Assembly (NCBI RefSeq): GCF_002288525.1
Contig: NZ_CP023068.1
Span: forward strand, 1,488,001 to 1,552,000
Length of the DNA stretch: 64,000 nucleotides
Direction: 5' to 3'
Origin: Sinorhizobium sojae CCBAU 05684
GTDB taxonomy: Bacteria > Pseudomonadota > Alphaproteobacteria > Rhizobiales > Rhizobiaceae
Positions 1,366 to 21,728 of the stretch are shown one piece after another. The translations under genes were made by a program, and so were the position numbers. The notes under the pieces are model-generated. The model had not been told where the DNA came from. It saw only the letters and a list, made by a program, of their open reading frames with translations, and made no database searches. Position 1 is the first letter of the stretch, and the number at the start of each line of letters is the position of its first letter.

Positions 1366-1812
1366 GCTTATCAATGGATGCGGAATGTGGTTTTGGCGGT
1401 CGCCCTACGCGAGCACCGGAACCTTCAAGCCGCCGGCGTCGCCGCCTTTGCCGATCACCCGAGTTTTCCGACTGCACGGAAGGCAAAACTTGGCCTCCTT
1501 GATCCGACCTTCGGCGGCCAAGCCGCAATTACGCCGATCTCCTATCAGGAAATCATCGACATTGCTCGCAACGTCGGGGTGGATCAGAAGCTTTGCGCCG
1601 ATCTTTTCAACACTCGCGTGAAAGCAGAGTCGTCGCCCTTGAGGGTAAATACGCTAGTCAGCGACCTTCGAGGGCAAGTCCTGCTTCCAGGATCGGATCC
1701 ACACCAGCAGAATAAGGGAGCGTTGCCTCGACTAGGATGTCTGGGGCGACACCACGCATTCGAGATCGGTGCCATCCACTTCGACCCGGTGGGTGGCAAC
1801 CAGCAAGAGTGA
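1..1812 (+). CDS. ISL3-family transposase, 5' partial, reading past the element end
   Basis: This is the DDE transposase of an ISL3-type element, which cuts and joins the element ends. The visible part holds the DDE-fold core starting near GIDDWSWRR, an HTH-like segment (CSEIARRTGYGRRSIAKWL) and the C-terminal family signature NGKAEGQINRLKTIKRAMYG. The zinc-binding N-terminus lies outside the window; a related one is seen at 57181. No stop occurs before the element end at 1365, so the frame runs about 149 codons into flanking DNA and stops at 1810-1812. The tail from residue 456 on has ordinary protein-like composition up to about base 1640 and may include a host gene fragment in frame. The last part is antisense to an S41 peptidase remnant. 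I doubt that the tail is functional. Confidence 0.75.
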   Translation, partial: EIVSLLGHSAGGRPGERLMRRLGMPVSDDTILRRLKQDAALAHCDATIRVVGIDDWSWRRSWRYGTVIVDLERRSVVDILDDRSVASAARWLERHPSVEIVSRDRCGLYAQAAREGAPQARQVADRFHLMQNLRVAIEEQMSLSGRATGRALLSDKSIGSAQIDLIQDDPHVDATHRRRVRHAHRQSRQVVFDTVHALRKEGLSCSEIARRTGYGRRSIAKWLTFETPPDRQKAALKPTSPLYFEVFLAACWKDGNRCGRHLFHDIKQRGYTGSFSNLERLLASWRRAERSVKDSASPAPIIPDQPAPDAVPIRDPGTGHVISPVVAAALCMKPRGMLTINQASKVDALKQGSHEFALMRSLAIRFRGILRSRESSKLDIWIDDAVSTGLAPIVRFARVLCRDIGAVRNAIELPWSNGKAEGQINRLKTIKRAMYGRAGPELLRARILTVICQATAYQWMRNVVLAVALREHRNLQAAGVAAFADHPSFPTARKAKLGLLDPTFGGQAAITPISYQEIIDIARNVGVDQKLCADLFNTRVKAESSPLRVNTLVSDLRGQVLLPGSDPHQQNKGALPRLGCLGRHHAFEIGAIHFDPVGGNQQE

Positions 1813-2000
1813 TTGATCCGAGAGCAGGAATGGGCGTGCCGCCACTACCGCGCCCGCCGTCCTGTTTCCGACCACGGTCGCACCATAGCGCTGTAGTGCA
1901 AAGGCGAGCACCTCGTTGCCGCTGCGGGTCGTTCCATCTACGAGCAGAATGACTGGCTTGATCTGGTGTGAGGCGTTTGGGGAGTTCATCACCGCCACCC
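1658..2000 (-). pseudogene. S41-family C-terminal processing peptidase, fragment
   Basis: The minus strand encodes the end of an S41 (Ctp/tricorn-type) serine peptidase. The segment ILLVDGTTRSGNEVLAF contains the catalytic-Ser region and is followed by YGATVVGNRTAGAVV. The frame breaks near 1755, and a second frame supplies the expected C-terminus beginning GVAPDILVEATLPYSAG. The N-terminal two thirds are absent. The frameshift and truncation make it a pseudogene. It lies between the ISL3-type element and the radical SAM operon and runs opposite to both. Confidence 0.65.
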
Positions 2001-2385: not shown

Positions 2386-2628
2386 ATGTCGATGGTTGAA
2401 AGTAAGTTTCCTGGAAAATCCAAATGGCAGCTGCGCACCCGCAACGACAAAGCGGGCGAGCTTGAGATGGACGTTCCCGTGGATGAGTTGGTCAAGGCTT
2501 TGGCCAGCGAAGAGGAATCCGCCAAGTTCATGGAACGTCACAATCTGACCATGGAAGACTTTGTCGAGCGGGCCGAATTGCTCAACCGATATCTGAACAG
2601 CGCGGTGATCGACGTCACCCGCGTCTAG
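2386..2628 (+). CDS. 80-residue peptide, candidate precursor of the radical SAM/B12 operon
   Basis: This small acidic protein starts at ATG 2386 (MSMVES) behind a perfect AAAGGAGG at 2374-2381. I do not recognise the family. It has no Cys and no signal peptide. A basic N-terminal part (SKFPGKSKWQLRTRN) leads into an amphipathic acidic helix (VPVDELVKALASEEESAKFM), then MEDFVERAELLNRYL and a short tail ending in VIDVTRV. The TAG stop overlaps the GTG start of the radical SAM gene (TAGTG), so the two are translationally coupled. Size, position and coupling fit a RiPP-type precursor with a long leader and a short C-terminal core, but no GG cleavage site or known leader motif is visible. It could instead be a small accessory or carrier protein. 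Confidence 0.8.
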   Translation: MSMVESKFPGKSKWQLRTRNDKAGELEMDVPVDELVKALASEEESAKFMERHNLTMEDFVERAELLNRYLNSAVIDVTRV

Positions 2629-4826
2629 TGGCTGGGCTTCAGCCGGCGGTCGACCGTCGTACCCTTGCGATCGCGGCACGCGTGAACCGTTTTGCCGCGC
2701 CCAGTGCATTTATGGCCTATGCGCAATCTGTCCTTGCGGTCTATGTCGCGGCGGGATTGTGCTTTGGCCGAGATGGGCAGCGGCTCCGCCCGCATTTCGT
2801 TAGATATCGCGGTAAGACGGGTGACATGGCGGGGCCGGATTTGCCGCTTTGCGATTTCGGGGCGCAGGATGGCGGTTGGGCAAAAGGCACCGCCTTCGCC
2901 GAAAATCCTGCGGCCGTTGCTTTTCGCGCGCTGATCGGAATTTCACTGCCAGAGATGGATCGTGGCCCACTTATGTCCGGGCAATGGCAGCCGGGTGGCT
3001 TGGCCACCGCGTGGCATGCCGATCCGCCTGCACCCGGGGATTTCGTATTTTCCTATGCGGTCAGTCCGACAACGCCCGCGCCGGCGGATATCGATCATGC
3101 AGCGGCGCTGATCGGGGCGCTTCTCGACGTCGTCGAGTTGCTGGACGAGGACGAAGTCATCGTACCGGGCTGGATCGCGCAGGGCGCCGAGAAAAGGGAC
3201 CTGCCCGCGCCACATCCCGCGGCACCCCCCGAGATCGGCGCGCGAACCGATGGCAAGGCGGGCTCGGGCCATCGCCAGCCCCTGCATTCGGTTGTCGGAG
3301 CGCAGCCCTCAATCGTCGCTTTAGCGCGGCATTGGTCACTGGTTGCGGGCGCGATCGCCGACGGCTCGGGCCTGCCTGCCCCGATCACCGGTTTCCGCCT
3401 GCGTCGCACGGCCGACTGGCAGGTACCTTCTACCGGCGATCCGGCCGAGGTCTATGAACATCTCGGCCGCGTCTGCAATGTTTCGTGCAAATTCTGCTAT
3501 CTCTTCGGCAATCCCGGGAATCTAGCGATCGCACGCGGCACACGGGTCATTCGCCAGGACGAGGTTGAGACAAGGCTGCGCTATTTCCTCGCCGATACCG
3601 GTCAGGCGCTGTTCCATGCCGAGTGGGAAAACAACGAAACGCTGGTCGATCCGAAACTGCCGCAGCTTTTGCCGAGGCTGAGAGAGGCATCGGACAAACC
3701 CTTTTTCTTCGTCACGAACGGCAATCCCCTGACACCGGCGATGCTGGATCTTCTGGCCTCGGTCAAGCCGGTGCATGTGATCGTCTCGATCAATAGCGCC
3801 AATCCCGAATTGCGCGCGGATGTCATGCGCGAATCGAAGACAAGGCGCGCGCGTGCGCTAGAGGGGCTTTACGGGCTGGACGACCGCGGGATCTCATTCG
3901 GCATCAGCCTGGCCGCCTTTCCCGAGTTTCCGATCGACGATCTCCAGGCGACGATCGAGCATGTCGCGACCCTGCGCGCGGCTTATGTCCGGATCAACCT
4001 GCCGGGCTACACACGCTATTTGCCGCCCGAGCATCCCTTTGACACCCCGTCCACCTGGGCGCGCGTTACCGAATGGGCGCGCGCGTTGCGCGCGCACGTG
4101 CGACTGCCCATCCTCGTCATTCCCAGCGCGTTTGAAGAGAATCTCTACCATGACGATCCCGTGGCCGCGCGGGTCATCGGCACGATCCCGAACTCTCCCG
4201 CCGATCGGGCCGGGCTGCGGCCGGGCGACGTGATCGAGCGGATCGGGTTGCTGCCGGTGACGTCGCGCGCCTCGGCCCAGGCGCTTTTGTCACTGGATCG
4301 GGGTGATGCGCGGCTAACCGTACGACGGGGGGCAGCCGTCCATACGCTTTGCCTCGATGCGACGGCGGGCGCGTTTCCTTATGTCGGAGAGAGCTATGGC
4401 AAATACCGCTTTCCGAAGGGCATGGTGCTGGCACCCTCGCTGTCCGATGCCGATATCCGCCAGGTCTGCGACCAGATCGACGATTATGGCGCGAAGAATG
4501 CCTGGGTCTTTACCTCACGGCTGATGATGCCGGCCGTCCGCCGGCTTCTCGCGCCTTACGATCTTTGGGACCGCGTGCGGCTGGTGCCTGTCGACAACCA
4601 CTATCTGGGCGGAAATATCCAAGTGCTGGATATGGCGACAATCGGAGATATGACCCGCCATGTCGAGGCCGAGACAACCGCGGCGGCGCGCCCCGATTTA
4701 TTGTTGAGCCCCGGCACCGGGTTCAATCGCGAGGGCCGCGATCTTCTGGGGCGGCACTGGAAGGATCTGCCGAACCATTTCGACATTCCGTGCGAACTGA
4801 TGTCCTGTTCGCGCTTCACGTTCTGA
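2628..4826 (+). CDS. radical SAM protein with PDZ and DUF512-like domains
   Basis: This 732-residue protein starts at GTG 2628, overlapping the upstream stop. Residues 1-260 form an unrecognised N-terminal domain. The radical SAM cluster motif CxxxCxxC is C283, C287 and C290 (CNVSCKFC), followed by AEWENNE and NLPGYTR segments of the barrel. Residues about 512-585 look like a PDZ domain (IPNSPADRAGLRPGDVIERI). Residues 595-732 resemble DUF512 (GKYRFPKGMVLAPSL, LLLSPGTGFNREG). PDZ, radical SAM and DUF512 also occur together in a known uncharacterised family, TIGR03279. Here the PDZ lies between the other two, and a long N-terminal region is added. It presumably binds the 80-residue peptide or a later intermediate and does the first radical step. 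The substrate is unknown. Confidence 0.85.
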   Translation: MAGLQPAVDRRTLAIAARVNRFAAPSAFMAYAQSVLAVYVAAGLCFGRDGQRLRPHFVRYRGKTGDMAGPDLPLCDFGAQDGGWAKGTAFAENPAAVAFRALIGISLPEMDRGPLMSGQWQPGGLATAWHADPPAPGDFVFSYAVSPTTPAPADIDHAAALIGALLDVVELLDEDEVIVPGWIAQGAEKRDLPAPHPAAPPEIGARTDGKAGSGHRQPLHSVVGAQPSIVALARHWSLVAGAIADGSGLPAPITGFRLRRTADWQVPSTGDPAEVYEHLGRVCNVSCKFCYLFGNPGNLAIARGTRVIRQDEVETRLRYFLADTGQALFHAEWENNETLVDPKLPQLLPRLREASDKPFFFVTNGNPLTPAMLDLLASVKPVHVIVSINSANPELRADVMRESKTRRARALEGLYGLDDRGISFGISLAAFPEFPIDDLQATIEHVATLRAAYVRINLPGYTRYLPPEHPFDTPSTWARVTEWARALRAHVRLPILVIPSAFEENLYHDDPVAARVIGTIPNSPADRAGLRPGDVIERIGLLPVTSRASAQALLSLDRGDARLTVRRGAAVHTLCLDATAGAFPYVGESYGKYRFPKGMVLAPSLSDADIRQVCDQIDDYGAKNAWVFTSRLMMPAVRRLLAPYDLWDRVRLVPVDNHYLGGNIQVLDMATIGDMTRHVEAETTAAARPDLLLSPGTGFNREGRDLLGRHWKDLPNHFDIPCELMSCSRFTF

Positions 4827-4837
4827 GAGAGGGGCCG

Positions 4838-6487
4838 ATGACCCGAGCGATCCGTGCCGCCTTCGTCAGACCACCCTCGACGGTGACGCATGAATATTCA
4901 AAGCCGGTAGAATGCCTCGCGCTTGGCTATCTTTGCGCCGCGCTGCGCGAAGCGGGGCACGGGGCGGTGCTGTTGGACGGGCTCTTATGGCGGTGGAGCG
5001 TCGATGAGACGGTAGAGCGAATCCTTGCCGCGGATGTCGACGTGGTCGGATTGAGCGTCGCCTTTCAATATCTGCCGCCCGAAATTCCCGACATCGCCAA
5101 AAGGCTGCGCGCCGCCGGCTTTGCCGGGCCGATCTTGGTCGGGGGCCATTCGGTTTCTTTCGCAGCAGATGAGGTCGTTCTGGCACATCCCGAGATTTCG
5201 GCCGTCATCCGGGGCGAGGGCGAAAGCGCCATAGCCGCAATCGCCACCAAACTGGCCGCGGGCGAGGATTTCCGGACAGCGCCGGGCGTGACCTTCGCCG
5301 AGGATGGGCGAGCCGTTCAGCGGCCGGTCCGGCGCGAGGCAGATCTGGACGCGCTGCCAAGGCCGGCGCGCGATGCCGTGCCGGATATCCTCGCCAATGA
5401 CGGGCTGGTCGCAATCTCGACCAGCCGAGGCTGCTATGCGCGCTGCACCTTTTGCAGCGTCCCGCGCTTTTTCGGGCTGGAGGCAGGTCACAAACACGCG
5501 TCTGGCGCGTGGCTTTCCCGTTCGCCCGCCTGCGTTGTCGAGGAAATGCGCGATCTGAAGAACCGTTTCGGCATCATCGAATTGCTGTTCGTCGATGACG
5601 AATTCTTTGGCGGCAGCGAGGCGGGCAAGCGCCGCGCCGAAGAGCTGGCCGCGCGGCTGATTGAAGCCGATCTGGGGATTCGCTTCGCGATCTCGTGCCG
5701 GGCCGAAAATGTCGAAGAGGCGCTGTTTGCCCGGCTTCAGGCGGCGGGTCTGTCGCATGTCTTCATCGGCATCGAATCGGGCGTCGCTCAGGCGCTGAAG
5801 CTGTTCGCGAAGTCCCAGACCCTCGATGACAGCCGCCGCGCGATCGCAACGGTCAAGCGGCTGGGCCTGTCGTTCCAGGCCGGCTTTATGGCGTTCAACC
5901 ACCAAAGCACGCTGGCTGACATCCGGCTGAACCTCGATTTCCTCGAAGAGATCGGCGAGGCGAAACCGTATAATTTCAACACCGCCGCGGCGCCCTATCG
6001 CGGGACGCCTTTGGCCGACAAGGTCGCCCGCGACGGGATGATGACGGACGCCGCGCGGCGCACCGCGACGGGGTTTCTCGACCTCCATGTCGCGCTGGCC
6101 AGAGAGGCCGCGGCCGAGATCGCCGCCGCCGCTGCGCCGTTCATCGGCGCGATCGCCGCGCTGCAATCGGCGATCACCTATCAGTGGCGACGCGACGTGC
6201 CCGCGCGCTCTGACGAGACGCGGCGCGTCGTCAACGCGCTGGAAGCGGCGATCAATGCCGAGCTGTTCCAGATGATGCGCGAAACCGTCGAGACGCTGGA
6301 AAGCCAGCCCGCAATTTCCGGAGCCACGCTTCTTGACGATCTGCGGGCGCGACTGGGCACATGGCGCAAATCCAAAGAAGGATCGGTCGCTCTTGTCTGT
6401 GCCTGGGTGCGTCAGAAAGAGGGCGAGGTGCGCTATTGGACACAGTCCGATCTGATCGCCCATCCGCAGGAGCATGCCAATGCGTGA
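4838..6487 (+). CDS. cobalamin-binding radical SAM protein (class B-like), first copy
   Basis: The protein has 549 residues and starts at ATG 4838 behind GAGAGAGGGG. Residues 1-150 form a Rossmann-like B12-binding domain (VDVVGLSVAFQ, GPILVGGHSVSF, AVIRGEGE). It lacks the DxHxxG motif, as is usual for class B radical SAM proteins. The 4Fe-4S motif is C199, C203 and C206 in SRGCYARCTFC. A later LLFVDDEFFGG and a GIESG segment (FIGIESGVAQAL) are typical of this superfamily. The C-terminal 150 residues are Ala-rich and probably family-specific. Known relatives methylate unactivated carbon or phosphorus or rearrange rings. Its gene overlaps the next by 8-14 bases. Confidence 0.9.
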   Translation: MTRAIRAAFVRPPSTVTHEYSKPVECLALGYLCAALREAGHGAVLLDGLLWRWSVDETVERILAADVDVVGLSVAFQYLPPEIPDIAKRLRAAGFAGPILVGGHSVSFAADEVVLAHPEISAVIRGEGESAIAAIATKLAAGEDFRTAPGVTFAEDGRAVQRPVRREADLDALPRPARDAVPDILANDGLVAISTSRGCYARCTFCSVPRFFGLEAGHKHASGAWLSRSPACVVEEMRDLKNRFGIIELLFVDDEFFGGSEAGKRRAEELAARLIEADLGIRFAISCRAENVEEALFARLQAAGLSHVFIGIESGVAQALKLFAKSQTLDDSRRAIATVKRLGLSFQAGFMAFNHQSTLADIRLNLDFLEEIGEAKPYNFNTAAAPYRGTPLADKVARDGMMTDAARRTATGFLDLHVALAREAAAEIAAAAAPFIGAIAALQSAITYQWRRDVPARSDETRRVVNALEAAINAELFQMMRETVETLESQPAISGATLLDDLRARLGTWRKSKEGSVALVCAWVRQKEGEVRYWTQSDLIAHPQEHANA

Positions 6488-7100
6488 TCTTGCCACCTCC
6501 CAACAGGAAACGACACCGCTTGGCCGTACAGCGCATGTCCTGATGCAGACGCCGGACCCAGCCCACCAGCTTGCCGATCATATCGAGGCGATGAGGCTTG
6601 CGACGTTTCGCGCGCGGCTTTCGCCGCCTGAGGGGCCCGCCGGGCAGTGGATCCTCGATCTCGGTGACGAGATGGCCGCCCCCAACCGCCCGCAACTTCT
6701 GCTGAATTTCTTCGATCCTGACAGTTTTGGCGCACTCTGGGTCGCGGGCGAGTTGGTGCCGCATGCGCATGAGCGGCCATTCGCGACGCGGCTGCTGTCC
6801 GGACGCTACGCGCAATGGCTTTATCACCGGGACGAGACGGGCACCCTACACATTGTCGAAAAGATGCATGTCGCGGCGGGACAGATCTATGGCCTCGGGT
6901 CCGAGCGGATCCATCTGATCCTGATGCCGGCAGAGGGCACGCTGTCGTTGTCGATCCGCGGGCCGGCGCGCGGCCCGGCAGGCACGGCCCCGCAGCCGCC
7001 TTTGCCAGAGGATGCCGCCGCGCGCATCCGCGAGCGGATGCTGGCCGCCCTCCGCGATGCGCCTCCGGCAAAAGCCGCGCTTTTGGGGATCTGGGACTGA
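6480..7100 (+). CDS. cupin-like protein of about 206 residues
   Basis: Two starts are possible, ATG 6474 and ATG 6480, both inside the end of the preceding gene. I do not recognise a named family. The centre reads PHAHERPFATRLLSGRYAQWLYH and then HIVEKMHVAAGQIYGL with a later ERIHLIL. This resembles a cupin or cysteine-dioxygenase-type metal site (HxH, a following E, and a distal H). The C-terminus is Pro- and Ala-rich. The stop overlaps the start of the next gene (TGATG). In the operon it may be a small metal-dependent oxygenase, isomerase or binding protein. The fold is inferred from the His pattern only. Confidence 0.8.
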   Translation: MRDLATSQQETTPLGRTAHVLMQTPDPAHQLADHIEAMRLATFRARLSPPEGPAGQWILDLGDEMAAPNRPQLLLNFFDPDSFGALWVAGELVPHAHERPFATRLLSGRYAQWLYHRDETGTLHIVEKMHVAAGQIYGLGSERIHLILMPAEGTLSLSIRGPARGPAGTAPQPPLPEDAAARIRERMLAALRDAPPAKAALLGIWD

Positions 7101-8005
7101 TGCGGGGGGGCGAGCGGATCGTTCTGGGCAGTTGGGGGCTGGCCGGCCAGTTCGAACGCGCGGGCACGCGGATCGGCTATGGCGCGGTGCCGGAGGCCCA
7201 GGCCCTGGACGTGCTCGACCGGGCCTGGGCGCTTGGCATCCGGCATGTCGACACCGCGTCCGGCTATGGCGGCGGTGCGGGCCTAGCGCGGATCGCGCGC
7301 TGGTCGCGGAAAACGGGCCGCCACTTCGCTCTTACCCTGAAACTCGGGCGCCCTCTGAACGCAGAGGGCCGGCCAGAGCGGCGCCTGACCCGGCAGGATT
7401 TGGCCGATGAGCTTGCAAGCGCCGAGTCGGTCATCGGCCCATCGGCAAGCCTTCTGCTGAAGGATCCGCCATTGGACGCGCCCGAGGCCCTCGCCGTACA
7501 TCTCGAGACGCTGCAGGCATTCGCACCCGGAGGCCAGACGGGGATTTCTACGCACCAGATCGCCGCCTGCCACGATCTGCCCCTGCCGGGGGGCGGGCGC
7601 ATCGCACAAATCGAGTTCAACGGCGTCAATCAGGGCATGGCGGCGCCGGCGGCGCGGGCGTTGAAGGCCAAAGGCTGGGAGGTCTGGGCGATGCAGCCGC
7701 TTTGCTACGGGTTTCTGAGCGGGCGCTACACCGATCAATGGGCCTTCCCCGAAGGGGATTTTCGCGCGGCGTTGCCGCCCTCGATCCGGGCGCTTTATCT
7801 TCGGGGCGCGCAACTCTTTGATGCCGGACGCGCACGACCTAAAGGGATTTCCCCGTCCGTCGACGCCCTGGCCTTTTGTCTGAGTCACCCCGCCATCGAC
7901 AAGGTCGTGATCGGGCCGAAGACGGTCGCACAGCTGAACGATATCGAAACCGCGCTGGCGCATGCGGAAAAGCAGGAGGGCCTGGCGCATGACCATGCGG
8001 TTTGA
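7100..8005 (+). CDS. aldo/keto reductase-like protein without the catalytic His
   Basis: This 301-residue protein starts at ATG 7100, overlapping the upstream stop. It has aldo/keto-reductase features: the N-terminal strand IRHVDTASGYGG with D51 and Y56, K81 in LTLKLG, and a C-terminal cofactor-side motif IDKVVIGPKTVAQLNDI. The fourth member of the family tetrad, normally His in a YLLH-type strand, is K121 here (LLLKDPP). The barrel is probably intact, so it may bind NADPH or another ligand and act as a modified reductase, or it may have lost redox function. The longer open frame upstream of 7100 lies inside the previous gene and is not used. Confidence 0.85.
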   Translation: MRGGERIVLGSWGLAGQFERAGTRIGYGAVPEAQALDVLDRAWALGIRHVDTASGYGGGAGLARIARWSRKTGRHFALTLKLGRPLNAEGRPERRLTRQDLADELASAESVIGPSASLLLKDPPLDAPEALAVHLETLQAFAPGGQTGISTHQIAACHDLPLPGGGRIAQIEFNGVNQGMAAPAARALKAKGWEVWAMQPLCYGFLSGRYTDQWAFPEGDFRAALPPSIRALYLRGAQLFDAGRARPKGISPSVDALAFCLSHPAIDKVVIGPKTVAQLNDIETALAHAEKQEGLAHDHAV

Positions 8006-8984
8006 CGATCTTGCCGCGCTTGAACCGGCATTCCTCGCCCGGCTCGATCCGGCCGAATATGGCTGGGACGCAGAGGATCTTGCCCTTGCGCTCGCCGCGG
8101 CCACGCCCGATCTCGCGGCCTATATTCTGGACAATCTTGCGCCTGAAAGCTCTGGCGCGGTGCGCAGCGAGCTTGACGCCCAGCCCGACCCTGATCCGCT
8201 GTCGGCGCTTCGCGCGCAGCAGCGGATCATCAGCGCGCTTTTCTGGGAGTTGATCTATCGCCGCCATCCCGACGCCTATGACGCCTTTGCCGAGATCCAG
8301 GCCTTCCCCTTCCCCGATCTTTTCCCCGCGACGCTGCTGTCCGGCGCGCGCGTGCTCGATGTCGGCTGTGGCACCGGCGCCCTGACCCGCTGGGTTGCCC
8401 GGCATGCGAAAGAGGCAACCGGTGTCGATCCGGTCGCCCCGATGCTCGCGGTCGCGCGCCGCCGTTCCCGCAATGGGGCAAGCTTTCGTCTGGGCCGGTT
8501 TTCGGACTTACCCTTCCCAGCGGACAGTTTCGAAGTCGTCGTCTCCAATATGGCCTTTCAGCCCTTCGAAGACAGCGGCGGCATCAGCGGCCTCAACGAG
8601 ATGCGCCGCGTCCTCGCGCCGGGGGGTGAAATCCAGCTGTCGGCGGGCAGCCGCGCCGCCGATGAGATGCTGAGAGCCGAGGGGTTCGACGTCACTTTCT
8701 TCCCTGGCGCGCTCGGCTGGCACGAAACGCGCGTCGTGATGAATGAGGCCCATCGCGCAATCGTCGCCGAATTGTGTCGCCGTGGCGGTCAGGGCTTTAC
8801 CAGGTTCGAACAAGCCGATGAAATTGCCGGGCTCTTCACCACCGCCAGCTGGTCGGCCGCCCGCACGTTGGATTCGCTGAACGCCCTCTGGGACGGCGAG
8901 CGCCCGACTGCCGAGCTGTTCCAAGGCGACAACCTCTTTCAGCCGCTCGGCATTCCCATCTATCGCTGGAGGTCGCCGTCATGA
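7989..8984 (+). CDS. class I SAM-dependent methyltransferase
   Basis: The protein has 331 residues. ATG 7989 lies inside the end of the preceding gene (17-base overlap). SAM-binding motif I is VLDVGCGTGALTR at about residues 119-131, followed by the acidic post-I residue in EATGVD. Later motifs are LPFPADSFEVVVSNMAFQ and MRRVLAPGGEIQLS. The layout resembles BioC/UbiE-type small-molecule methyltransferases. An N-terminal region of about 110 residues precedes the Rossmann core. It presumably O-, N- or C-methylates the operon product. The stop overlaps the following start by 4 bases. Confidence 0.9.
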   Translation: MTMRFDDLAALEPAFLARLDPAEYGWDAEDLALALAAATPDLAAYILDNLAPESSGAVRSELDAQPDPDPLSALRAQQRIISALFWELIYRRHPDAYDAFAEIQAFPFPDLFPATLLSGARVLDVGCGTGALTRWVARHAKEATGVDPVAPMLAVARRRSRNGASFRLGRFSDLPFPADSFEVVVSNMAFQPFEDSGGISGLNEMRRVLAPGGEIQLSAGSRAADEMLRAEGFDVTFFPGALGWHETRVVMNEAHRAIVAELCRRGGQGFTRFEQADEIAGLFTTASWSAARTLDSLNALWDGERPTAELFQGDNLFQPLGIPIYRWRSPS

Positions 8985-9718
8985 CGCAACCTGTCCTGGC
9001 CGCTGAACTGGACGACTGGTTCACACACCACTTTCTGACGGCCGCGGCAGAGGCCCTTCGGCAACCCGATCCCGAGGATCCGTGGCAGCTTCACATCTTC
9101 GACGATGTGTTGTTGCCAGAGCGCTTTGACGCGCTTCGCGGCTTTCTCGAAGCCGCACGGTTCGAGCCGGTCTATGCGCTGGCCTCGTCGCCCGGCGAGG
9201 GACCCCAGGCGATGCGGGGACAGCCCTGCGACGCGGCGGCCTTTGACGCCGCGCCACTCGATCGGCGGCTTTTCCGGTTCGAGCGCCTGGCCGAGCGGGC
9301 AGAGGATGCCCCCTTCAGCCTGCCCTGGTTTGACTTCGCGCAATTCGTCACCCTGGCCCGTCGGGACGCGTTCGCACGGCTCTTCCGCCCCGAGGGGCCG
9401 CTTCTGGATGAGGTATTTCTGGACGTCCACCGCATGGGTCCGGGTGATTTTCTGCGCGCCCATACCGACAACCATTCGCGCCGCCGCTTCGCCCTGATCC
9501 TCTACCTCAATGCCGATTGGAACTCCGCGCAGGGTGGGCTTTTGCATTTCGGCCGGCCGAACGGACACAAGCGCGTGATAGAGCCGCGACCCAACCGTCT
9601 GGTCGTGTTCGATGTCGGTGCAGATCAGTGGCATGAGGTGCCGGAGCTGCCGTCTTCCAAGGCCGGACCGTGGCGCGCGAGCCTCGGGCTCTGGCTGGGC
9701 GAGACGGGGCCGCTCTGA
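8981..9718 (+). CDS. 2-oxoglutarate/Fe(II)-dependent oxygenase (prolyl-4-hydroxylase-like)
   Basis: This is a 245-residue protein in an ATGA overlap with the methyltransferase gene. The facial triad is visible as H161 and D163 in AHTDNHSRR, and H218 in DQWHEVPEL. R232 in WRASLGLWL is the expected 2-oxoglutarate anchor. The core ALILYLNADW and GGLLHF strands match the double-stranded beta-helix of P4H-type enzymes. It probably hydroxylates or otherwise oxidises the operon product. All catalytic residues are present, so I expect an active enzyme. Confidence 0.9.
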   Translation: MTQPVLAAELDDWFTHHFLTAAAEALRQPDPEDPWQLHIFDDVLLPERFDALRGFLEAARFEPVYALASSPGEGPQAMRGQPCDAAAFDAAPLDRRLFRFERLAERAEDAPFSLPWFDFAQFVTLARRDAFARLFRPEGPLLDEVFLDVHRMGPGDFLRAHTDNHSRRRFALILYLNADWNSAQGGLLHFGRPNGHKRVIEPRPNRLVVFDVGADQWHEVPELPSSKAGPWRASLGLWLGETGPL

Positions 9719-9757
9719 TGCCGGACCGGATGACATCTTGTTGCGAAGGGCACTGAG

Positions 9758-11317
9758 ATGAGGATCGCTCTGCTCAACCCCGCGCCCGAAAGCGCCCATC
9801 CCCTTGGCGTCAGTGGAGAGCCGATGGGCATTCTCGCGCTGGCCTCGGTGCTTCGGGCCGAGGGGCATGAGGTGGCGCTGCGCGATCTTGGCCTTCTGTT
9901 GCCCGATCAGCGGGCGGCGGCGCTGGAAACTGTGCTGGAGGGCGCAGCCCTTGCCGGGATCTCGTTGACCGGAGGGGCGCAGGTTGCCGCGATGACCGAC
10001 ATCGTCGCCGCCATCGACCGGGTCTGCCCGGACGCCTTTGTCCTGGCAGGCGGGGCGCTGCCGACCTTCGCGGCAGAGGCGCTTTTGCGCCAGATCCCGC
10101 GCGTCGACTGTGTCTTACGCGGCGAGGCCGAAGAAGCCCTGCCCGAGCTGATCCGCCATATCGAGGCCGGGACGGACTGGCGGGCCGTCAAGGGCGTGAC
10201 TTGCCTTGTCGAGGGGCAGGCGCGCTCACAGCCTTTGCCGCGGATGGTGCCGGATCTGGACAGCCTGCCCTTTCCCGCCCGCGATCTCTTGCCCGATCTC
10301 GACGCGGTCGGCCTGCAACCGACCCTCATCACCAGCCGTGGCTGCTGGGCGAAATGCACCTTTTGCACCAGCCAGGTCTTTCCCCGGCTTGCCGAGGGCT
10401 CGCTCTGGCGAGGGCAAAGCGCCAAATATGTCCTTGCCGAGCTTGACGCGCTCTGGTCCGATCACGGCGTGTCGAAATTCCGCATCCTCGACGACAATTT
10501 CGTCGGCCCCGGCACGCGCGGGCAAAGGCGCGCCCGCGAGATTTGCGAGGGCATCGAGACGCGCGGCGCGCGCGGCTATCGGTTCTTCGCCGCGATGCGG
10601 GCCGAAGTCATCAATGACGATATCATGGCGCGGCTGTTGGGGGCGGGGATGGACAGGATCTGCATCGGGATGGAGACTTGGTCGCCGTCCCAACTGCGCC
10701 GGCTTGGTAAGAACTCACCGATCGAGGTCAATCACCGCGCGCTGGATGTGCTGATGCGCCACCGGCCCGAAACGATCAACCTTGGCTGCATCCTGTTCGA
10801 TCCCGACACCACGCCCGAAGAGCTGATCGCCAATATCGAACTGATCGCGCAATATGGCGATCTTTATCAGATCAGCCAGCTGACCAGCCGGCTGGATGTG
10901 CTGCCCGGCACACCGGCCGAGCGCGATCTGCAGGCGCGCGGGCGGCTCAAGGGCGCGTGGGATGGCTATCGTTACGACTTCAGCGATGCGCGCGTCGGCT
11001 GGGCCTTCGATCTCTTGACCGGCGCGCTGGCCGATATCGCGAAGTTGGAGCAATATTGCCGCAAAATTGACGCCGAGACACCTGTGCCACGCGACAGCGC
11101 GGCAGAGCTTGGCGGGGCGTTGCATCGCTTCGCGATCGATTTCTTCCGCGAGGTCATCGGCGTCTGCGATGCGCTTTTGCCGGACGAAAGCGCCGCGTGG
11201 CGCGATGAGGCCGACCGGCTGCAGACCCGCGCTAAGGCGATGCGGGACCAGACCATCGGCCGACTGGCCCTGATCGAGATGGCCGCGACGTCCGCGGCGA
11301 CGACGGTGGCGCGGTAG
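9758..11317 (+). CDS. cobalamin-binding radical SAM protein (class B-like), second copy
   Basis: The protein has 519 residues, with ATG 9758 behind the purine run GCGAAGGGCACTGAG. The B12-binding domain comes first (RIALLNPAPESA, LAGISLTGGAQVA, DCVLRGEAEEAL). The radical SAM motif C196, C200 and C203 sits in SRGCWAKCTFC. Conserved FRILDDNFVGPG and RICIGMETW segments follow. It shares this plan with the 4838-6487 protein but the two sequences differ widely, so they probably do separate steps. It is the last gene of the operon, 39 bases after the oxygenase gene. I see no clear terminator after it. Confidence 0.9.
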   Translation: MRIALLNPAPESAHPLGVSGEPMGILALASVLRAEGHEVALRDLGLLLPDQRAAALETVLEGAALAGISLTGGAQVAAMTDIVAAIDRVCPDAFVLAGGALPTFAAEALLRQIPRVDCVLRGEAEEALPELIRHIEAGTDWRAVKGVTCLVEGQARSQPLPRMVPDLDSLPFPARDLLPDLDAVGLQPTLITSRGCWAKCTFCTSQVFPRLAEGSLWRGQSAKYVLAELDALWSDHGVSKFRILDDNFVGPGTRGQRRAREICEGIETRGARGYRFFAAMRAEVINDDIMARLLGAGMDRICIGMETWSPSQLRRLGKNSPIEVNHRALDVLMRHRPETINLGCILFDPDTTPEELIANIELIAQYGDLYQISQLTSRLDVLPGTPAERDLQARGRLKGAWDGYRYDFSDARVGWAFDLLTGALADIAKLEQYCRKIDAETPVPRDSAAELGGALHRFAIDFFREVIGVCDALLPDESAAWRDEADRLQTRAKAMRDQTIGRLALIEMAATSAATTVAR

Positions 11318-11992: not shown

Positions 11993-12120
11993 TGTCATTT
12001 GCCATTAAATTATGAGATTTCCGCGCCAATGATTTCAATACGTTGCCACGACACTTAATTTGAGAATCGGCCCTAAATTTGAGAATGCGACTTGGTTTTT
12101 GTCACTTAATGTGAGAATCA
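11993..12120 (+). repeat. left-end transposase binding repeats, copy 1
   Basis: After the terminal TGTC the left end carries four spaced versions of a TTAATTTGAGAAT-like word: AATTATGAGAT, TTAATTTGAGAATC, TAAATTTGAGAATG and TTAATGTGAGAATC. Arrays of this kind are bound by TniA/TnsB-type transposases. The right end (15500-15598) has the word once direct and twice inverted, so the ends are asymmetric. Confidence 0.7.
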
Positions 12121-12151
12121 GGCAGTCGAGATAATCGACGGTGTTCCTGCA

Positions 12152-13768
12152 ATGAGTGACCCACTTCCCGATGAAGTCGATGAAGCGCTTTGGGATGAAG
12201 CGTGCCGACGCGCAGACGCGATTCGGGAATTTCTGAAACACCGGACTGGCAAGATGACAGCCGGAGATGTGGCACTGCTTGCGACCGAGCTCGAAGTCAG
12301 TCGAGCGACCGCGTATCGCCTTATCAAGCTGTTTCGAGCCGGTGGCACGGTCATGTCGTTGGTGGATCGCAAGCGCGGTCGACCGCAGGGCCACCGGGTA
12401 CTGGATGACCAGCGGGAAGAGATCATCCGCACGACGATCAACAGATACTACCTGACACGAAACCGGCCGACAGTTTCGCAGCTGGTCCGGGATGTGCAGA
12501 CGAACTGCATGTCGGCCGGGCTCAAGCCGCCGCATCGCCGAACGATCAAGGCTCGTCTCGAGGAGATCGATCTGCAGAAGCGCGCCAAACGACGCGGCGA
12601 AACCGAGATCGTGAAGCAGACACAGGCCGTTCCTGGGGTGTTTGCCGCCTCCCGGCCTTTGCAGGTCGTTCAGGTCGACCATACGAAGGCGGACATCTTT
12701 GTCGTCGACGAGGAGACCCGGCAGCCGATCGGCCGGCCCTGGCTGACACTGGCGATGGATGTCTGCAGCCGCATGGTGACGGGATTTTACCTGACGATGG
12801 ATGCGCCCTCCCGGCTGTCGACCAGTCTGTGCCTGCTGCACTCAGTCTTCGACAAATCGGCCTGGTTGCGGGAGCGCGAGATCACCGAACCTTGGCCCGT
12901 CGCCGGTCTGCCGGAGACGCTGCACGTCGACAACGGCGCCGACTTCAGGAGCCGTGCTTTCAAGAGAGGGTGCCAGGATGCAGGCATTGCGATCGCATGG
13001 CGACCGCCGGCTGAGCCGCGCTTCGGTGGCCATATCGAGCGTCTGATCGGCACCCAGATGGGAAAACTCCACCTGCTGCCCGGCACGACTTTCAGCAGTG
13101 CGCAGGAGCTTGGCGAATACGATTCCAAGCGGCATTCGGCGCTCACTTTGCGCGAACTCGAGCGCTACATCGTCCTCGACATTGTCGGCTCCTATCATCA
13201 GTCGATCCACAGCAGCTTGGGCCGCCCGCCAATTGCCGTCTGGCGGGAGCACGAGGGCGAGATTCCGCTGCGACTGCCGCAGGATCGAATGCGTTTCTGG
13301 CTGGCGTTCCTGCCCGAACAGGAGCGCACATTGCGGCCAAACGGTATTCATCTGTTTGGCCTGCGCTACTGGTCAGCTGCGCTCAGCGCCGACGTCGGTC
13401 GCTCGAACCGTCGCCTGCTCGTCAAATACGACCCTCGGGACATGGCCCGTATCTTCGTACGGCGACCTTCGGGCAATTTCGTGGAAGCCCGCTATGCTGA
13501 TTTGACCCTGCCTTCGGTGACACTTCATGAGGCCGTGGCGGCGCGACGCACACTGCTGGCGAAAGGGCGACAGGAAATCAATACCCGCGCCATCGTCGGC
13601 ACGGCAATCGCGCAGCGCCAACTGGTGGATGCAGCAACCAAGAAGACGGCAGCCGTACGACGCGGCGGTGCAGGAAAGCCAAAAACGAACGTGGATGACC
13701 GCGGATGGGGCTCGCTTCGGGGAATCGACTCCAGCAAACCTGTGCCCTTTGTCGAGGACACGGAGTGA
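12152..13768 (+). CDS. tniA: TniA-like transposase (DDE, Mu C-terminal type)
   Basis: This 538-residue DDE transposase belongs to the TniA/TnsB/MuA group. An N-terminal HTH (VSRATAYRLIKLF, residues about 50-62) precedes a second DNA-binding region. The catalytic acids are visible in VVQVDHTKADI, LHVDNGADF and GGHIERLIG, with about 35 residues between the last two. The C-terminal Mu-type beta domain includes SSLGRPPIAVW and YDPRDMARIFV. It is full length. It catalyses strand transfer of the element ends and should act with TniB. The gene ends 6 bases before tniB. Confidence 0.93.
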   Translation: MSDPLPDEVDEALWDEACRRADAIREFLKHRTGKMTAGDVALLATELEVSRATAYRLIKLFRAGGTVMSLVDRKRGRPQGHRVLDDQREEIIRTTINRYYLTRNRPTVSQLVRDVQTNCMSAGLKPPHRRTIKARLEEIDLQKRAKRRGETEIVKQTQAVPGVFAASRPLQVVQVDHTKADIFVVDEETRQPIGRPWLTLAMDVCSRMVTGFYLTMDAPSRLSTSLCLLHSVFDKSAWLREREITEPWPVAGLPETLHVDNGADFRSRAFKRGCQDAGIAIAWRPPAEPRFGGHIERLIGTQMGKLHLLPGTTFSSAQELGEYDSKRHSALTLRELERYIVLDIVGSYHQSIHSSLGRPPIAVWREHEGEIPLRLPQDRMRFWLAFLPEQERTLRPNGIHLFGLRYWSAALSADVGRSNRRLLVKYDPRDMARIFVRRPSGNFVEARYADLTLPSVTLHEAVAARRTLLAKGRQEINTRAIVGTAIAQRQLVDAATKKTAAVRRGGAGKPKTNVDDRGWGSLRGIDSSKPVPFVEDTE

Positions 13769-13774
13769 GCTGGC

Positions 13775-14656
13775 ATGAACAACGAAATCTCCCACCTGAC
13801 CGCGAGCGCCGCAGCGCTGCTTGCTGAAACGGACGAGCAACGCATTCGTGCGATACGATCGCGCCGCTGGGTGCTCTACCCGCGCGCCAAGCAGGCGCTC
13901 GATCGGCTGAACCGGCTCCTCGATCATCCACGAGGAACGCGGATGCCTTCCGTCGCTATCTATGGCGACAGCGGCATGGGCAAGACGATGATCATGAAGC
14001 GCTTCCGCGACCAGCATCCGCCAACGTTCAATTCGCTGACGGGAACACTGAAGACACCGGTTTTGGCGATGGAGATGACCAGCCGGCCCGGCGAACGGCG
14101 GTTTTACGCCGAACTGCTGACCCTGCTCGGCGCACCCCAGCGGCCGCGGGCCGATATCGCCCAGATGGAGCAGGCTGCATTGCGGATCATGGAAGCGATC
14201 GGCGTGCAGGCGCTGGTGATCGACGAGGTGCACAACATTCTCGCCGGAACCTATCGTGAGCAGCGCATCGTTCTCAACACTCTGCGCTTTCTTAGCAATC
14301 GTCTGCGGATCTCACTCGTTTGCTTCGGCGTCAACGAGGCGCGGGAAGCCATTAGCGGCGACGTGCAACTGGCCCGCCGGTTCGAGCAATTCACGTTGAG
14401 CCGCTGGGCTGCAAACGAACAGTTCGAAACTCTGGTCGTGTCAATCTTGCGCAACACTCCATTGCGGCAGTCCTCGGTGTTAACTGCAAAATCGCTGCGG
14501 CGGATGCTGCAGATCACCGAGGGCATTACCGCCAACATTTTCCACACCATCAACACCCTCGCCATTGAGGCCATCGAAAGCGGACGCGAGCAGATTACCA
14601 ACGAAGCGATCGAGAAGTGGGAGCCGGAGTTTGATGCCGAGGCAGCCTTCGCATGA
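13775..14656 (+). CDS. tniB: TniB-like AAA+ ATPase of transposition
   Basis: This 293-residue AAA+ protein has Walker A GDSGMGKT (residues about 66-73) and Walker B LVIDEVHN. The sensor and arginine regions follow in CFGVNEARE and ARRFEQFTL. Members of this family (TniB, TnsC) bind target DNA in an ATP-dependent way and activate the transposase. The start at ATG 13775 follows the tniA stop. The 3' end overlaps the tniQ start by 23 bases. Confidence 0.92.
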   Translation: MNNEISHLTASAAALLAETDEQRIRAIRSRRWVLYPRAKQALDRLNRLLDHPRGTRMPSVAIYGDSGMGKTMIMKRFRDQHPPTFNSLTGTLKTPVLAMEMTSRPGERRFYAELLTLLGAPQRPRADIAQMEQAALRIMEAIGVQALVIDEVHNILAGTYREQRIVLNTLRFLSNRLRISLVCFGVNEAREAISGDVQLARRFEQFTLSRWAANEQFETLVVSILRNTPLRQSSVLTAKSLRRMLQITEGITANIFHTINTLAIEAIESGREQITNEAIEKWEPEFDAEAAFA

Positions 14657-15515
14657 CGCGGGAACATCCTCGCGGCAATTGCCGGTAATCTTGGCGCCCC
14701 ACGCCGACGAGCTCTTGTCGTCGTGGATCAGCCGGCATGCTTCCTTCTATGCGATCCCGCCACTTGGTATGCTGCGGCATTGTCTTCCCGAGGTGTCGTC
14801 TTTGCGCTCGGCCGATCGCAATCTGACCGCTACTCAGGTCACCCGCCTCGCCGGCATCTTCTCCACCGAACCGGCCACCCTGCGCCGCATGACCTTTTCG
14901 AATGTGGCGCCAGCATCGCGACGCCTGATTGCAGCCAGACCGCTACAGTCCTGTGCCTGTCATTCGGGTGACCACGAACCGAGGCCTCTCCTTCGCAGCC
15001 AGTTTCTCGGCTGGCGCATCACCTGTCCGCTTTGCGGCGACCTGCTCGAGCGCGCAGGAGGGCATGATCGCCCCTCTCCTTTCGACCGCTATAAAGGGGC
15101 CGCGCTCATAGGAGAACGGCTCCTCGACGATGAAGCCGAGCGCGGTATCCGAACCTGGACATCGCCGGCCGAAATCGCGCGCCTTCTGCTGATGCGACGC
15201 GTGCCGAGACCCCTTCCCCGTGAGTACGAACCGTGGCGATTCAGGGTGCTCGGCACAATCATTCCAGATCTCGATGGTGTCGTCGCTACGGAACGGAGGA
15301 ACCTGCCTACTCCAGCAAGTCCGATCCTGCCGCTGCATCTGCGACCTGCTCTGCTGGCAGGAGTAGCTATCGTCGAGCGGGCTGGACCAGAGATGCTCAA
15401 AATGCTGCGTGCGAAAATGATGGGTCAGAACCAAGCACGATTCAGCAGCGCTATCGACGAGATCATGACCCATACATGCCGTTCGGTGGCGTCTTCGCAG
15501 TTGCAGTTAATTTGA
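14634..15515 (+). CDS. tniQ: TniQ-family target-selection protein
   Basis: This 293-residue TniQ/TnsD-type protein starts at ATG 14634 behind GGAG and lies inside the end of tniB. The N-terminal TniQ domain includes HADELLSSWISRHASFY. CPLCGDLLER is one visible part of a zinc motif, and an upstream CxCH (CACHSG) may supply further ligands. It is intact here and frameshifted in copy 2. TniQ proteins help select or recruit the target site. No Cas genes or resolvase are associated with it. Confidence 0.88.
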   Translation: MPRQPSHDAGTSSRQLPVILAPHADELLSSWISRHASFYAIPPLGMLRHCLPEVSSLRSADRNLTATQVTRLAGIFSTEPATLRRMTFSNVAPASRRLIAARPLQSCACHSGDHEPRPLLRSQFLGWRITCPLCGDLLERAGGHDRPSPFDRYKGAALIGERLLDDEAERGIRTWTSPAEIARLLLMRRVPRPLPREYEPWRFRVLGTIIPDLDGVVATERRNLPTPASPILPLHLRPALLAGVAIVERAGPEMLKMLRAKMMGQNQARFSSAIDEIMTHTCRSVASSQLQLI

Positions 15516-15598
15516 GAATCCCGCCCGTCGGATTCTCATCTTTAAATGCCACATCCGGCTGAAACAGCCGCATTCTCACGTTTACGTGCCAAGCGACA

Positions 15599-16130: not shown

Positions 16131-16262
16131 CCGGAACTGATCGGGATCATTTGAGCGCTCGCTTCCCCTCCTCAGGAATTTGTCGCAGGGAACACACCAA
16201 AACGGATTACATTTTGATCATCCGCCCGACAGATTGCATTAATTTGATTTGATTCTTCAGAA

Positions 16263-16472
16263 TCAAACCGACGCCTCATTTATTTTCGCGAGCACATCGT
16301 CGATTAACTCGACGACGTCTTGAATGCTGTTGTTTTTGAAAACGATCCTAGTGCCTTTGCTCAGTGCGCCCGATAGCGATCCCGAACTAGGCACCGGTGC
16401 AAAATGAAGGATTTCCTCAATCCGGATTGCGATGCTCGAATTGTCGGGGCGGGTAAGAGTAACAAAAGCCAT
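16263..16472 (-). CDS. small FlbD-like hypothetical protein
   Basis: This 69-residue protein starts MAFVTLTRPD. I chose ATG 16472 because GGAGTGACC precedes it; a GTG two codons upstream is less likely. The pattern 'hydrophobic strand, TRPDNSSIAIRIEEILHF, GTRIVFKNNSIQDVVE' resembles the small FlbD-like or SpoVT-independent strand-rich family of about 70 residues. The similarity is weak and the function is unknown. A 120-bp gap separates it from the IS66 remnant. Confidence 0.65.
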   Translation of the reverse strand: MAFVTLTRPDNSSIAIRIEEILHFAPVPSSGSLSGALSKGTRIVFKNNSIQDVVELIDDVLAKINEASV

Positions 16473-16499
16473 GGTCACTCCATGCAGATGAACTAGCGC

Positions 16500-17051
16500 T
16501 TTGAAAAAGTGTATGACGTCACGGTTAGCACGGCCGGGTGTAGTTAAACTCCCACCGCTGGGTGCGACATATTGTATGTTCCATTGGCAATTCCAGGTCG
16601 CCTAAAATACCAGAGTTACGGCACATCGTCACATAGTCAATTTGGACTATGAATTGCTGTGGTTAAGTTTCCAGATGTGTCTGTTGCTGTCTCCGTTCGC
16701 GCTGCATCAAGCTCATGACTCGGCATGCGACTCGACTAGGGAGTCCACATCCCGCTTCCGGCGCTCGGCGACGTGGCGGCCTCAGGCCCGGACCGCAACG
16801 TGATCTTGCTGTTCCGCCTCGGTGAGCGCATCATGCGCATCGAACTCACGAAGAGTCTGATCGAAGCTCGCCGACTGGGAGCACTGGCCGTAGGGGACAC
16901 AGTGGGTTGAGACCCACTCGTGCCCTCAGGAAGCGTTCGGCGAGCAAATAACGAAATTGCATACGGCGGCAAACTTAGTCAGACGGAATTCAGTTGACGT
17001 GTGAAGCGACAACGTTGTTCACTTGCTGGTAGTCGTCACGGGGAGGACGCA
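16500..17051. other. 550-bp stretch with one possible gene remnant
   Basis: There is no complete gene here. The plus frame 16742-16911 reads NVILLFRLGERIMRIELTKS and then LIEARRLGALAVGD without a start codon, and may be the tail of a lost gene. An AT-rich stretch lies at 16560-16680. I see nothing else in it. Confidence 0.35.
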
Positions 17052-17558
17052 ATGATAGACCTAGCAACAGCAACGGTAATCGCAAAGATGGCCTCGGATG
17101 CGGTGGGCGCGTTTGATAAGATTTTTCGCGGATTTGCAGATGTTGTGGCAAAAAAAGAGCCAACTGCGCCGCACGTTCCTCCACCGGATTTTGTTTACAT
17201 CGACAGTCCAGAACAAAAGGCCTTTGTTGCTAAGTCGCGTAAGACTGGCGCCACCTACCAGACTGTAACTTATCAGACGCTATGCGAAACGCTCAGCGGC
17301 GGCGATCGCGAATACATTGAGACATTAACACGCGCTATGGAGAATTATCAGCGTCAATGGAATAGTGCCTTTGAACAGCGGTCGTTGGCGAGCGGCATGG
17401 ACGTTGGCAGAATGGATGCCCAGTTGGACTACCTTGCTAGGCAGATAGCCGATTGCTTAATCAAAGTGCTTGATTTCGTTGGGAAAATGGGCCTCCACTT
17501 GGATGATCACTACAGTATGGCACGGCATGTAGCGGGAAAATATCTCGCAAGGGCCTAA
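17052..17558 (+). CDS. hypothetical protein of 168 residues
   Basis: The start is ATG 17052 (MIDLATATVIAKMASDAVGAF) behind GGGAGGACGCA. The N-terminal 30 residues form an amphipathic helix, then a Pro-rich linker (KEPTAPHVPPPDFVYID), then a helical C-terminal half with YIETLTRAMENYQRQW and LARQIADCLIKVLDF. There are no Cys pairs, signal peptide or membrane segment. I do not recognise the family. The lower GC than the radical SAM operon suggests a different origin. Confidence 0.7.
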   Translation: MIDLATATVIAKMASDAVGAFDKIFRGFADVVAKKEPTAPHVPPPDFVYIDSPEQKAFVAKSRKTGATYQTVTYQTLCETLSGGDREYIETLTRAMENYQRQWNSAFEQRSLASGMDVGRMDAQLDYLARQIADCLIKVLDFVGKMGLHLDDHYSMARHVAGKYLARA

Positions 17559-17951
17559 ATGCTCGTCGCCGAGATCGAATTCCGGAAAGCTGCGGGATCC
17601 CCCGTTCAAGAAGATCAGGGGGCGGGCGGTACCGTGAACATCTCAACAGACTTTGGACATCTCGATGGAAGATACCCAGCTTACCCCATCAAGTGCCATC
17701 CGAGCACGTAGCACCCGAAGGCGCGTCGACAACGCTCATAACCGAGCCGCCGCCCTTGAAGAGAACGATGTCGGGCGGGCCCAAAGCGGACGTTCAGAGC
17801 TGACCGATCCTTTGCCGGCAGCGGGCTTGGCTTGCGATCGTGCGCCCCGAGAATGGCTCGAGGTTTGTTCGCCATTAGCCCGACGAGTCCGATCCGGCTG
17901 AACTGACAGGGCGGGTTCGTGGATGCAAATCCTAGAGTGCGGGCGGGAACT
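17559..17951. other. 390-bp stretch without a supported gene
   Basis: Open frames on both strands overlap one another and have shadow-like composition rich in Arg, Ser and Pro. No ribosome binding site or recognisable motif favours any of them. Confidence 0.4.
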
Positions 17952-18857
17952 ATGCATACTAGAGAAAAATCGAAAATGCTTTGGAGCGCCTTGTGTATGA
18001 AATCGGCTTTCTATGGGCTGGTCTTCAGTCTTGGATGGTTAAACGCCCCCGCGGCTTTTGGCCAAGAATTGGTCATTGCTGCGCCGGCCAGATTGGACTC
18101 GAGGGAGCCTAATGAATGGGGCGACGCAGGGGATGTGATGTGGCGCAACAATGTCTATGAGGCGTTGGTCGGCGTCGACAACAACCTAAACCTCGTGCCC
18201 GCATTGGCTGTTTCGTGGGAATATAATGGCGTGGGTTTACTGCTCCGGTTGCGGGAGTGCAGGTTTACAAATGGCGACGCCTTGAGCTCGGCCGATGTTG
18301 CTGCTTCCCTTCGCCATGCTCAGGACCAAGGCTCTTTTCCTGGTCTCCGCATCGACGTTGTCGACGACCATACAATTCAGGTGATCGCGGAAAACGATCA
18401 AACGCCTCTCGCCGCCTGGCTAATATATCTGCCTGTCATACCGCGGAGCTGGGTAGATGGTGATCGCGGCGCTTCTCCGCCAGGAACCGGTGCTTACCGG
18501 CTCATGGACATACAACAAGACTATCGGGCCATATTTGAGCGAAACACTGATTGGTGGGGATGGACGGAAACCGAGATGACGGGAACCGCCGAGCGAATTA
18601 CTCTGGTCAATGTTAGAGACAAGTCAGTTCAGGTAAATTCGCTATCGTCGGGTCAGGCTGACTTGTTGTGGGCTTGGACAGAGGGATATGCTGACAAGGG
18701 GGACGAGACGATGCAATTCGTGGAACGCTTGGCTGGCGAGCGAATTCCAGCGATTCTCGCACCCGGCGGAATATTTGCAGGACGTCCTGGCCGCGTTCAA
18801 TCCGTACAATTCGATTGGTACGGCATCAAATGGGCCCACGTGCGAACATCTAACTAG
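17952..18857 (+). CDS. ABC transporter substrate-binding protein (family 5), C-terminally truncated
   Basis: This is a secreted solute-binding protein of the SBP_bac_5 (peptide/opine/nickel) family. A signal peptide is visible from the internal Met at 17997 (MKSAFYGLVFSLGW...AFG-QE), which is also a plausible start. Family features are VYEALVGVDNNLNLVPALAVSW, LLLRLRECRFTNGDALSSADV and GTGAYRLMDIQ. Full-length members are about 500-560 residues, but this one stops at about 300 and lacks the second half of the lobe structure. No permease or ATPase genes adjoin it. It is probably a decayed or domesticated binding protein. Confidence 0.7.
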   Translation: MHTREKSKMLWSALCMKSAFYGLVFSLGWLNAPAAFGQELVIAAPARLDSREPNEWGDAGDVMWRNNVYEALVGVDNNLNLVPALAVSWEYNGVGLLLRLRECRFTNGDALSSADVAASLRHAQDQGSFPGLRIDVVDDHTIQVIAENDQTPLAAWLIYLPVIPRSWVDGDRGASPPGTGAYRLMDIQQDYRAIFERNTDWWGWTETEMTGTAERITLVNVRDKSVQVNSLSSGQADLLWAWTEGYADKGDETMQFVERLAGERIPAILAPGGIFAGRPGRVQSVQFDWYGIKWAHVRTSN

Positions 18858-18865
18858 CGGCTAGT

Positions 18866-21257: not shown

Positions 21258-21456
21258 TTTGTTTACTTGTCGCATGGAGCGCTCCCCGGTTCACCGGACA
21301 GGATGCGCGTTCAGCCGCCTTAAAGATACGTGGGGTGCCCTACCGCTTACGATCGATCTGGAGAGCTGGCTAGGGCAAATTTTGGCGCCTCATGAGCGGC
21401 GACAGTCATACCGCCACGTTCCAGCGCACATGGACCGTGAAAGCCACTGCCTGCAG

Positions 21457-21640: not shown

Positions 21641-21728
21641 TGTCGCTTTGCATTTGATTGCGAGACTCCTGTGCCAATGATTTCATATGCTTGGCATGGC
21701 AATTAATTTGAGAATGGCCACTTAAATT
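21641..21728 (+). repeat. solo left end of a TniABQ-type transposon
   Basis: The stretch begins TGTCGCTTTGCATTTGATT and contains CCAATGATTTCATATG, TTAATTTGAGAATGG and a final CTTAAATT. This is the same plan as the left ends at 11993 and 49023 but is clearly diverged. It is interrupted at about 21729 by the IS66 element. No tniA follows. It is an older insertion scar within mcrC. Confidence 0.6.

Follow-up and report, generated by a model that had tools for sequence, protein, structure and literature searches.

The DNA analysed here (the window) is a 64,000-nucleotide stretch of Sinorhizobium sojae CCBAU 05684, positions 1,488,001 to 1,552,000 of contig NZ_CP023068.1. Eight intact plus-strand open reading frames (ORFs), g1 to g8, span its positions 2386-11317, with neighbours overlapping or nearly touching; the stop codon of g1 shares one base with the GTG start of g2. 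An earlier note, made from the sequence alone, had proposed an operon with overlapping genes here. It was confirmed, correctly placed and with all eight ORFs intact. The operon encodes a short peptide, which looks like the precursor of a ribosomally synthesized and post-translationally modified peptide (RiPP), and a set of enzymes that includes radical S-adenosylmethionine (SAM) proteins:

2392..2628, plus strand: g1, putative precursor peptide of 78 amino acids (80 if the start is 2386), with a helical leader and the C-terminus VIDVTRV
2628..4826, plus strand: g2, radical SAM / PDZ / DUF512 protein, probable cobalamin enzyme
4155..4436, plus strand: g2 PDZ domain (residues 510-603 of the model), with RseP-type, DegQ and other PDZ matches
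4437..4823, plus strand: DUF512-type domain of g2 (residues about 604-732), probably cobalamin-binding
4838..6487, plus strand: g3, B12-binding radical SAM enzyme, present in 6/6 complete loci
6474..7100, plus strand: g4, cupin-like protein with a resemblance to thiol dioxygenases of the 3-His type
7100..8005, plus strand: g5, aldo-keto reductase (AKR) family protein in which Lys replaces the catalytic His
7989..8984, plus strand: g6, SAM-dependent methyltransferase whose N-terminal part is helical (start 7962, 7989 or 7995)
8981..9718, plus strand: g7, 2-oxoglutarate (2OG)-Fe(II) oxygenase
9758..11317, plus strand: g8, second B12-binding radical SAM enzyme, found only in the window

The g1 peptide family and the conserved gene set

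Related loci were collected by an exact-peptide-pattern scan of contigs, built on an alignment of 29 g2 family members. The scan gave five loci from named genomes, which is a lower bound. The loci compared with the window were:

L011: Streptomyces sp. WAC 01529
L012: metagenome-assembled genome (MAG) labelled Corynebacterium
L013: Actinoplanes sp. KI2
L014: Crocinitomicaceae MAG
L015: Rhizobium lentis
L023: Actinoplanes, a further locus from the family of L013

The preferred start of g1 is ATG 2392, with AAGGAGG eight bases ahead. A single-sequence database search with g1 recovered only g1 itself, and its family was reached only via peptides read from the related loci. The resulting seven-peptide profile found 32 database proteins of 57-86 amino acids: the window's own g1 and 31 relatives (P0040-P0070), seven of which are apparently from the same genomes as g2 matches, with two of the seven being loci already counted. 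When the window's row was left out, a hidden Markov model picked g1 alone among 1450 window frames (E=3.2e-12, next 2.5).

A short g1-type ORF was present no more than 0.8 kb upstream of g2 in 7/7 loci, the window counted, and directly upstream of it except in L013 and L023, where g4 intervenes. All rows of the 34-row g1 alignment stop at one column. The last residue is Val (34/34), preceded at -1 by Val (29 rows), Cys (2) or one each of Arg, Met and Ala, at -2 by Asn (32), Thr (window) or Lys, and at -3 by Val (31), Ile, Leu or Met. The tail reads VNVV in 27 of the 34 rows, the rest being VTRV (window), INVV, LNVV, VNCV (twice), VNMV and MKAV. Positions -4 to -9 vary with the taxon, and the leader before them is conserved, with Leu at -10 in 34/34. 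An encoded peptide with a conserved leader and a VNVV-type tail was found adjoining modifying enzymes in 7/7 loci, and on these sequence features g1 looks like a RiPP precursor.

Instead, g1 might be a docking or scaffold protein, or a carrier, with a C-terminal tag bound by the PDZ domain of g2 and the product made from free metabolites. The leader, conserved as strongly as the tail, would agree with this, as would a leader-like paralogue without the tail in two Actinoplanes loci and the fixed C-terminal Val, the expected look of a PDZ tag. However, a short precursor-like ORF near radical SAM genes is the usual RiPP layout, and the set holds no carrier-loading-type enzyme, save perhaps a FemAB-like protein seen in 4/6 loci only. 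We regard a scaffold or carrier role as unlikely.

The tail-less paralogues lie at 4330-4500 in L013 and 6620-6796 in L023, directly before the major facilitator superfamily (MFS) gene, and have only a weak PqqD match (0.04-0.08). No PqqD or RRE match was found among the eight window proteins at E≤0.1. Such leader-binding domains are frequent in RiPP clusters but not present in all of them.

Genes g1-g5 recur in 6/6 complete loci. MFS and FemAB-like genes occur in four of these six, and neither is present in the window or in R. lentis. As a member of the conserved set, g8 was rejected: its sole matches in the related loci had 26-28% identity and fell on g3. The small peptide of the earlier note is thus present and can be placed in a conserved precursor family. 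Its eight-gene set stands for g1-g5, but not for g8, and its caveat that the gene set might lack conservation across genomes did not apply. The note had also deduced an intracellular product from missing transporters; the window does lack both the MFS and the FemAB-like gene, and for the window itself the deduction may hold, but as a rule for the family the deduction was rejected, given the MFS gene in most complete loci.

Two minor observations concern the related loci. The PhyH gene of L013 gave a piecemeal match only. At 7502-8984 of L015, on the minus strand, a QueC-like gene and a gene without a Pfam match adjoin the R. lentis cluster and are divergent from it.

The radical SAM protein g2 and its partner enzymes

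Database searches with g2 returned 38 matches, the window's own counted, from Streptomyces, Actinoplanes, Micromonospora, Carbonactinospora, a Silvibacterium MAG, Methylobacterium and others. In P0035, g2 apparently continues as a B12-binding protein and has a frameshift-like tail; no inference was drawn from this record. Residue invariance was scored on the alignment of 29 family members. The three cysteines of the CX3CX2C motif (C283, C287, C290) and Tyr291, right after the third cluster Cys, were invariant (29/29 each). So was Met669, which in the sequence alignment falls on the Leu below the cobalt in 9cg1 and 9cg2. At E≤1, the DUF512 model PF04459 matched 12 of the 14 family members; the best value was 4.1e-6, and that of the window's g2 only 0.043.

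Foldseek comparison of g2 with the PDB ranked the two DUF512 proteins of solved structure at the top, 9cg2 first (4.9e-10) and 9cg1 second (2.1e-8). The fold match to DUF512 structures covers residues 268-731, and the N-terminal domain (residues 1 to about 267) was barely covered by VIA matches. Four DUF512 proteins bind cobalamin and form methylcobalamin (PMC11659888). Because its C-terminal domain is of the DUF512 type, cobalamin-binding elsewhere (PMC11659888), and its top two Foldseek hits are DUF512 structures, g2 is probably a cobalamin enzyme too. The operon would then hold three cobalamin radical SAM enzymes. The earlier note had counted three radical SAM proteins, which is correct, and two that bind B12, which should likely be three with g2 included.

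In g2 the radical SAM core precedes a DUF512-type cobalamin domain at the C-terminus, as it does in csDUF512 (9cg1), pfDUF512 (9cg2) and Mmp10 (7qbs), all of which also have an aromatic residue straight after the third cluster Cys. In the solved structures, this residue lies between cluster and cobalamin (Y23/F95/Y47), and three solved structures have the Leu below the cobalt, which is no stated membership rule (PMC11659888). The same paper describes a PDZ domain in csDUF512, as in g2, and gives a DDD motif on the cluster loop as the rule for a csDUF512-like PDZ subgroup (PMC11659888). In this subgroup the PDZ is N-terminal to the radical SAM domain. The g2 alignment has no DDD after the cluster motif, and its PDZ is C-terminal to the barrel. 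Compared with these three proteins, g2 differs in having its PDZ between the radical SAM and DUF512 domains, about 267 residues ahead of the core, no DDD motif, Met669 where Leu sits under the cobalt, and adjoining peptide and tailoring genes.

Residues 510-603 of g2 align in VIA with RseP-type PDZ domains over almost their entire length (for 2zpl, 88 aligned residues against its 94). A helix of this domain (547-556) starts at the invariant Arg547, and Lys592-Tyr593 near the domain end is invariant in 29/29.

Among the partners, g3 has OxsB (3.4e-22), AprD4 (8.9e-12) and CysS (1.4e-4) as sequence relatives in the PDB, and g8 has OxsB (8.1e-16). Both scored below the cut-off of 281.85 bits for TIGR03975, the RiPP-maturation radical SAM C-methyltransferase model (g3 63.7, g8 72.9 bits). 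OxsB, AprD4 and CysS are B12-type radical SAM enzymes that act on small-molecule substrates and, unlike the window cluster, have no precursor peptide. The likeness of g4 to thiol dioxygenases rests on 17-19% identity at modest model confidence, and Pfam and NCBIfam gave no match of g4 to a thiol dioxygenase model. The replacement of the catalytic His by Lys in g5 was seen in 6/6 family members compared.

Product and proposed pathway

The earlier note recognized no described pathway with this gene set and expected a heavily modified small product. Both views were supported. In the open-access full-text literature, a scope that leaves most subscription journals outside, a cluster of such a kind was not found described, and NCBIfam had no model at its cut-off for the operon proteins. 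The most likely output of the operon is a modified, peptide-derived product. With a probability of about 0.68, the PDZ step below set aside, we read the operon as a horizontally moved RiPP-type cluster acting by modification of a core in g1.

In the precursor, the helical leader would be followed by a core of very few residues at the C-terminus, mostly Val-Asn-Val-Val and here Val-Thr-Arg-Val. This core is predicted to be modified by g2 and g3, most likely through C-methylation or some other radical reaction on unactivated carbons. Tailoring could then involve g4 (possibly an iron oxygenase of the 3-His type), the atypical AKR g5, the methyltransferase g6 and the 2OG oxygenase g7. A protease encoded outside the operon would free the product, which may be exported. 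In the window, the extra B12 radical SAM enzyme g8 may accompany the changed core.

More tentatively, the free C-terminus of the precursor (VNVV-COOH, here VTRV-COOH) is proposed to be recognized by the g2 PDZ domain; this step is possible, though doubtful. The domain would grip the terminal carboxylate and Val side chain and thereby offer the tail to the radical active site. Lys592 and Tyr593 would sit close to the carboxylate, Arg547, where the binding helix begins, would face the Asn or Thr at -2, and the exposed residue at -1 would be free to vary. If true, a PDZ domain would guide recognition of a RiPP substrate by its C-terminus; a PDZ/DUF512 radical SAM enzyme would then have a substrate, and its PDZ domain a purpose. 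For csDUF512 and pfDUF512, the substrates are called unknown (PMC11659888). A 2025 review asks which reactions DUF512 radical SAM enzymes catalyse and calls the PDZ role unknown (PMC13331322). The cluster offers an encoded candidate substrate for such an enzyme, and the question of its reaction is therefore open to co-expression and mass spectrometry.

Polytheonamide- and bottromycin-type RiPP clusters likewise combine a small precursor gene with genes for B12 radical SAM C-methyltransferases, methyltransferases and oxygenases. The window cluster differs from them in its core, which comprises only some four residues at the very C-terminal end, its PDZ/DUF512 enzyme, and its AKR and cupin-like partners. 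Mycofactocin and pyrroloquinoline quinone (PQQ) share with the cluster, as proposed, a very short core in a small precursor and maturation by radical SAM enzymes. A peptide-derived intracellular cofactor or signal made in their manner, which the earlier note had suggested, would suit the short core, the window and R. lentis loci without exporter, and redox-type partners such as the AKR and the oxygenases. It is nevertheless very unlikely. The cluster is distinguished from those systems by its cobalamin-type enzymes, its very sporadic occurrence (e.g. 1/392 Streptomyces) and the MFS gene in 4/6 loci; no dedicated dehydrogenase family turned up, although no search was aimed at one. Identity with either system was rejected: the NCBIfam matches of g1 (0) and g2 (13) at E≤0.1 include no MftA, MftC, PqqA or PqqE model.

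Distribution and genomic setting

The cluster is very sporadic. Besides the single Streptomyces carrier, from the genus of L011, carriers numbered 2/354 in the family of L013, 1/394 in the window's family, 1/297 in its order, 1/148 in the genus of L015 and 1/200 in the family of L014, seeds counted. No g2 match was found in the 32 genomes of the window's genus, where the residual rows, with E-values from 5e-5 to 8e-4, are confined to the PDZ part of g2 or, in one row, to the radical SAM part. The products are predicted to form a family of very small peptides with heavy modification, thinly scattered among actinobacteria, Rhizobiaceae, a Bacteroidota MAG and others. The wide taxonomic spread, the rare occurrence and the GC content of the operon (65.0%, compared with 57.5% in the rest of the window) point to horizontal transfer of the cluster.

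The operon is flanked by an ISL3 transposase (55-1809) on one side and a TniA/TniB/TniQ transposon (genes 12152-15512) on the other. Here it could be a decaying passenger of a transposon-rich island, with only its relatives still making the product. The transposases on both sides, the GC contrast, the divergent core and the missing exporter are in line with this, but none of the eight ORFs is interrupted and their overlaps are tight, key motifs are retained in g2, g4 and g5, and an enzyme has been gained (g8), not lost. Decay is the least probable of the readings considered.

The host genome consists of three contigs totalling 6.09 Mb. Plasmid records yielded neither a g2 homologue at E≤1e-5 nor operon-like DNA, and viral contigs yielded no g2 homologue. 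Downstream, the stretch 16200-21900 holds a short transposase-like piece common to plasmids of Sinorhizobium (36/50 records), Rhizobium and Agrobacterium, a sharing that amounts to 3% of the query among the matches listed. Promoter- and terminator-like sites were no more frequent than in shuffles. An imperfect direct repeat, GCCTTC(T/G)TAACATA, lies upstream of g1 at 2213-2270 and is a possible operator. A truncated S41 peptidase fragment of the C-terminal-processing type (1735-1998, minus strand) lies next to the operon, where the ISL3 transposase gene ends.

The TniA/TniB/TniQ transposon is present in two copies (11993-15598 and 49023-52627; 3.6 kb, 99.6% identity). Two adjacent giant ORFs on the minus strand (26948-33247 and 33243-40517; 2100 and 2425 amino acids) overlap at their ends by a few bases and have no match in Pfam (E≤1e-4) or PADLOC (E≤1e-3). 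Near them, a 1454-amino-acid KAP NTPase (43804-48165) resembles QatA and PifA. A SAVED-domain protein (61109-62521, minus strand) gave a full-length match to a PADLOC endonuclease effector model (E=3.4e-257) and is a probable CBASS effector.
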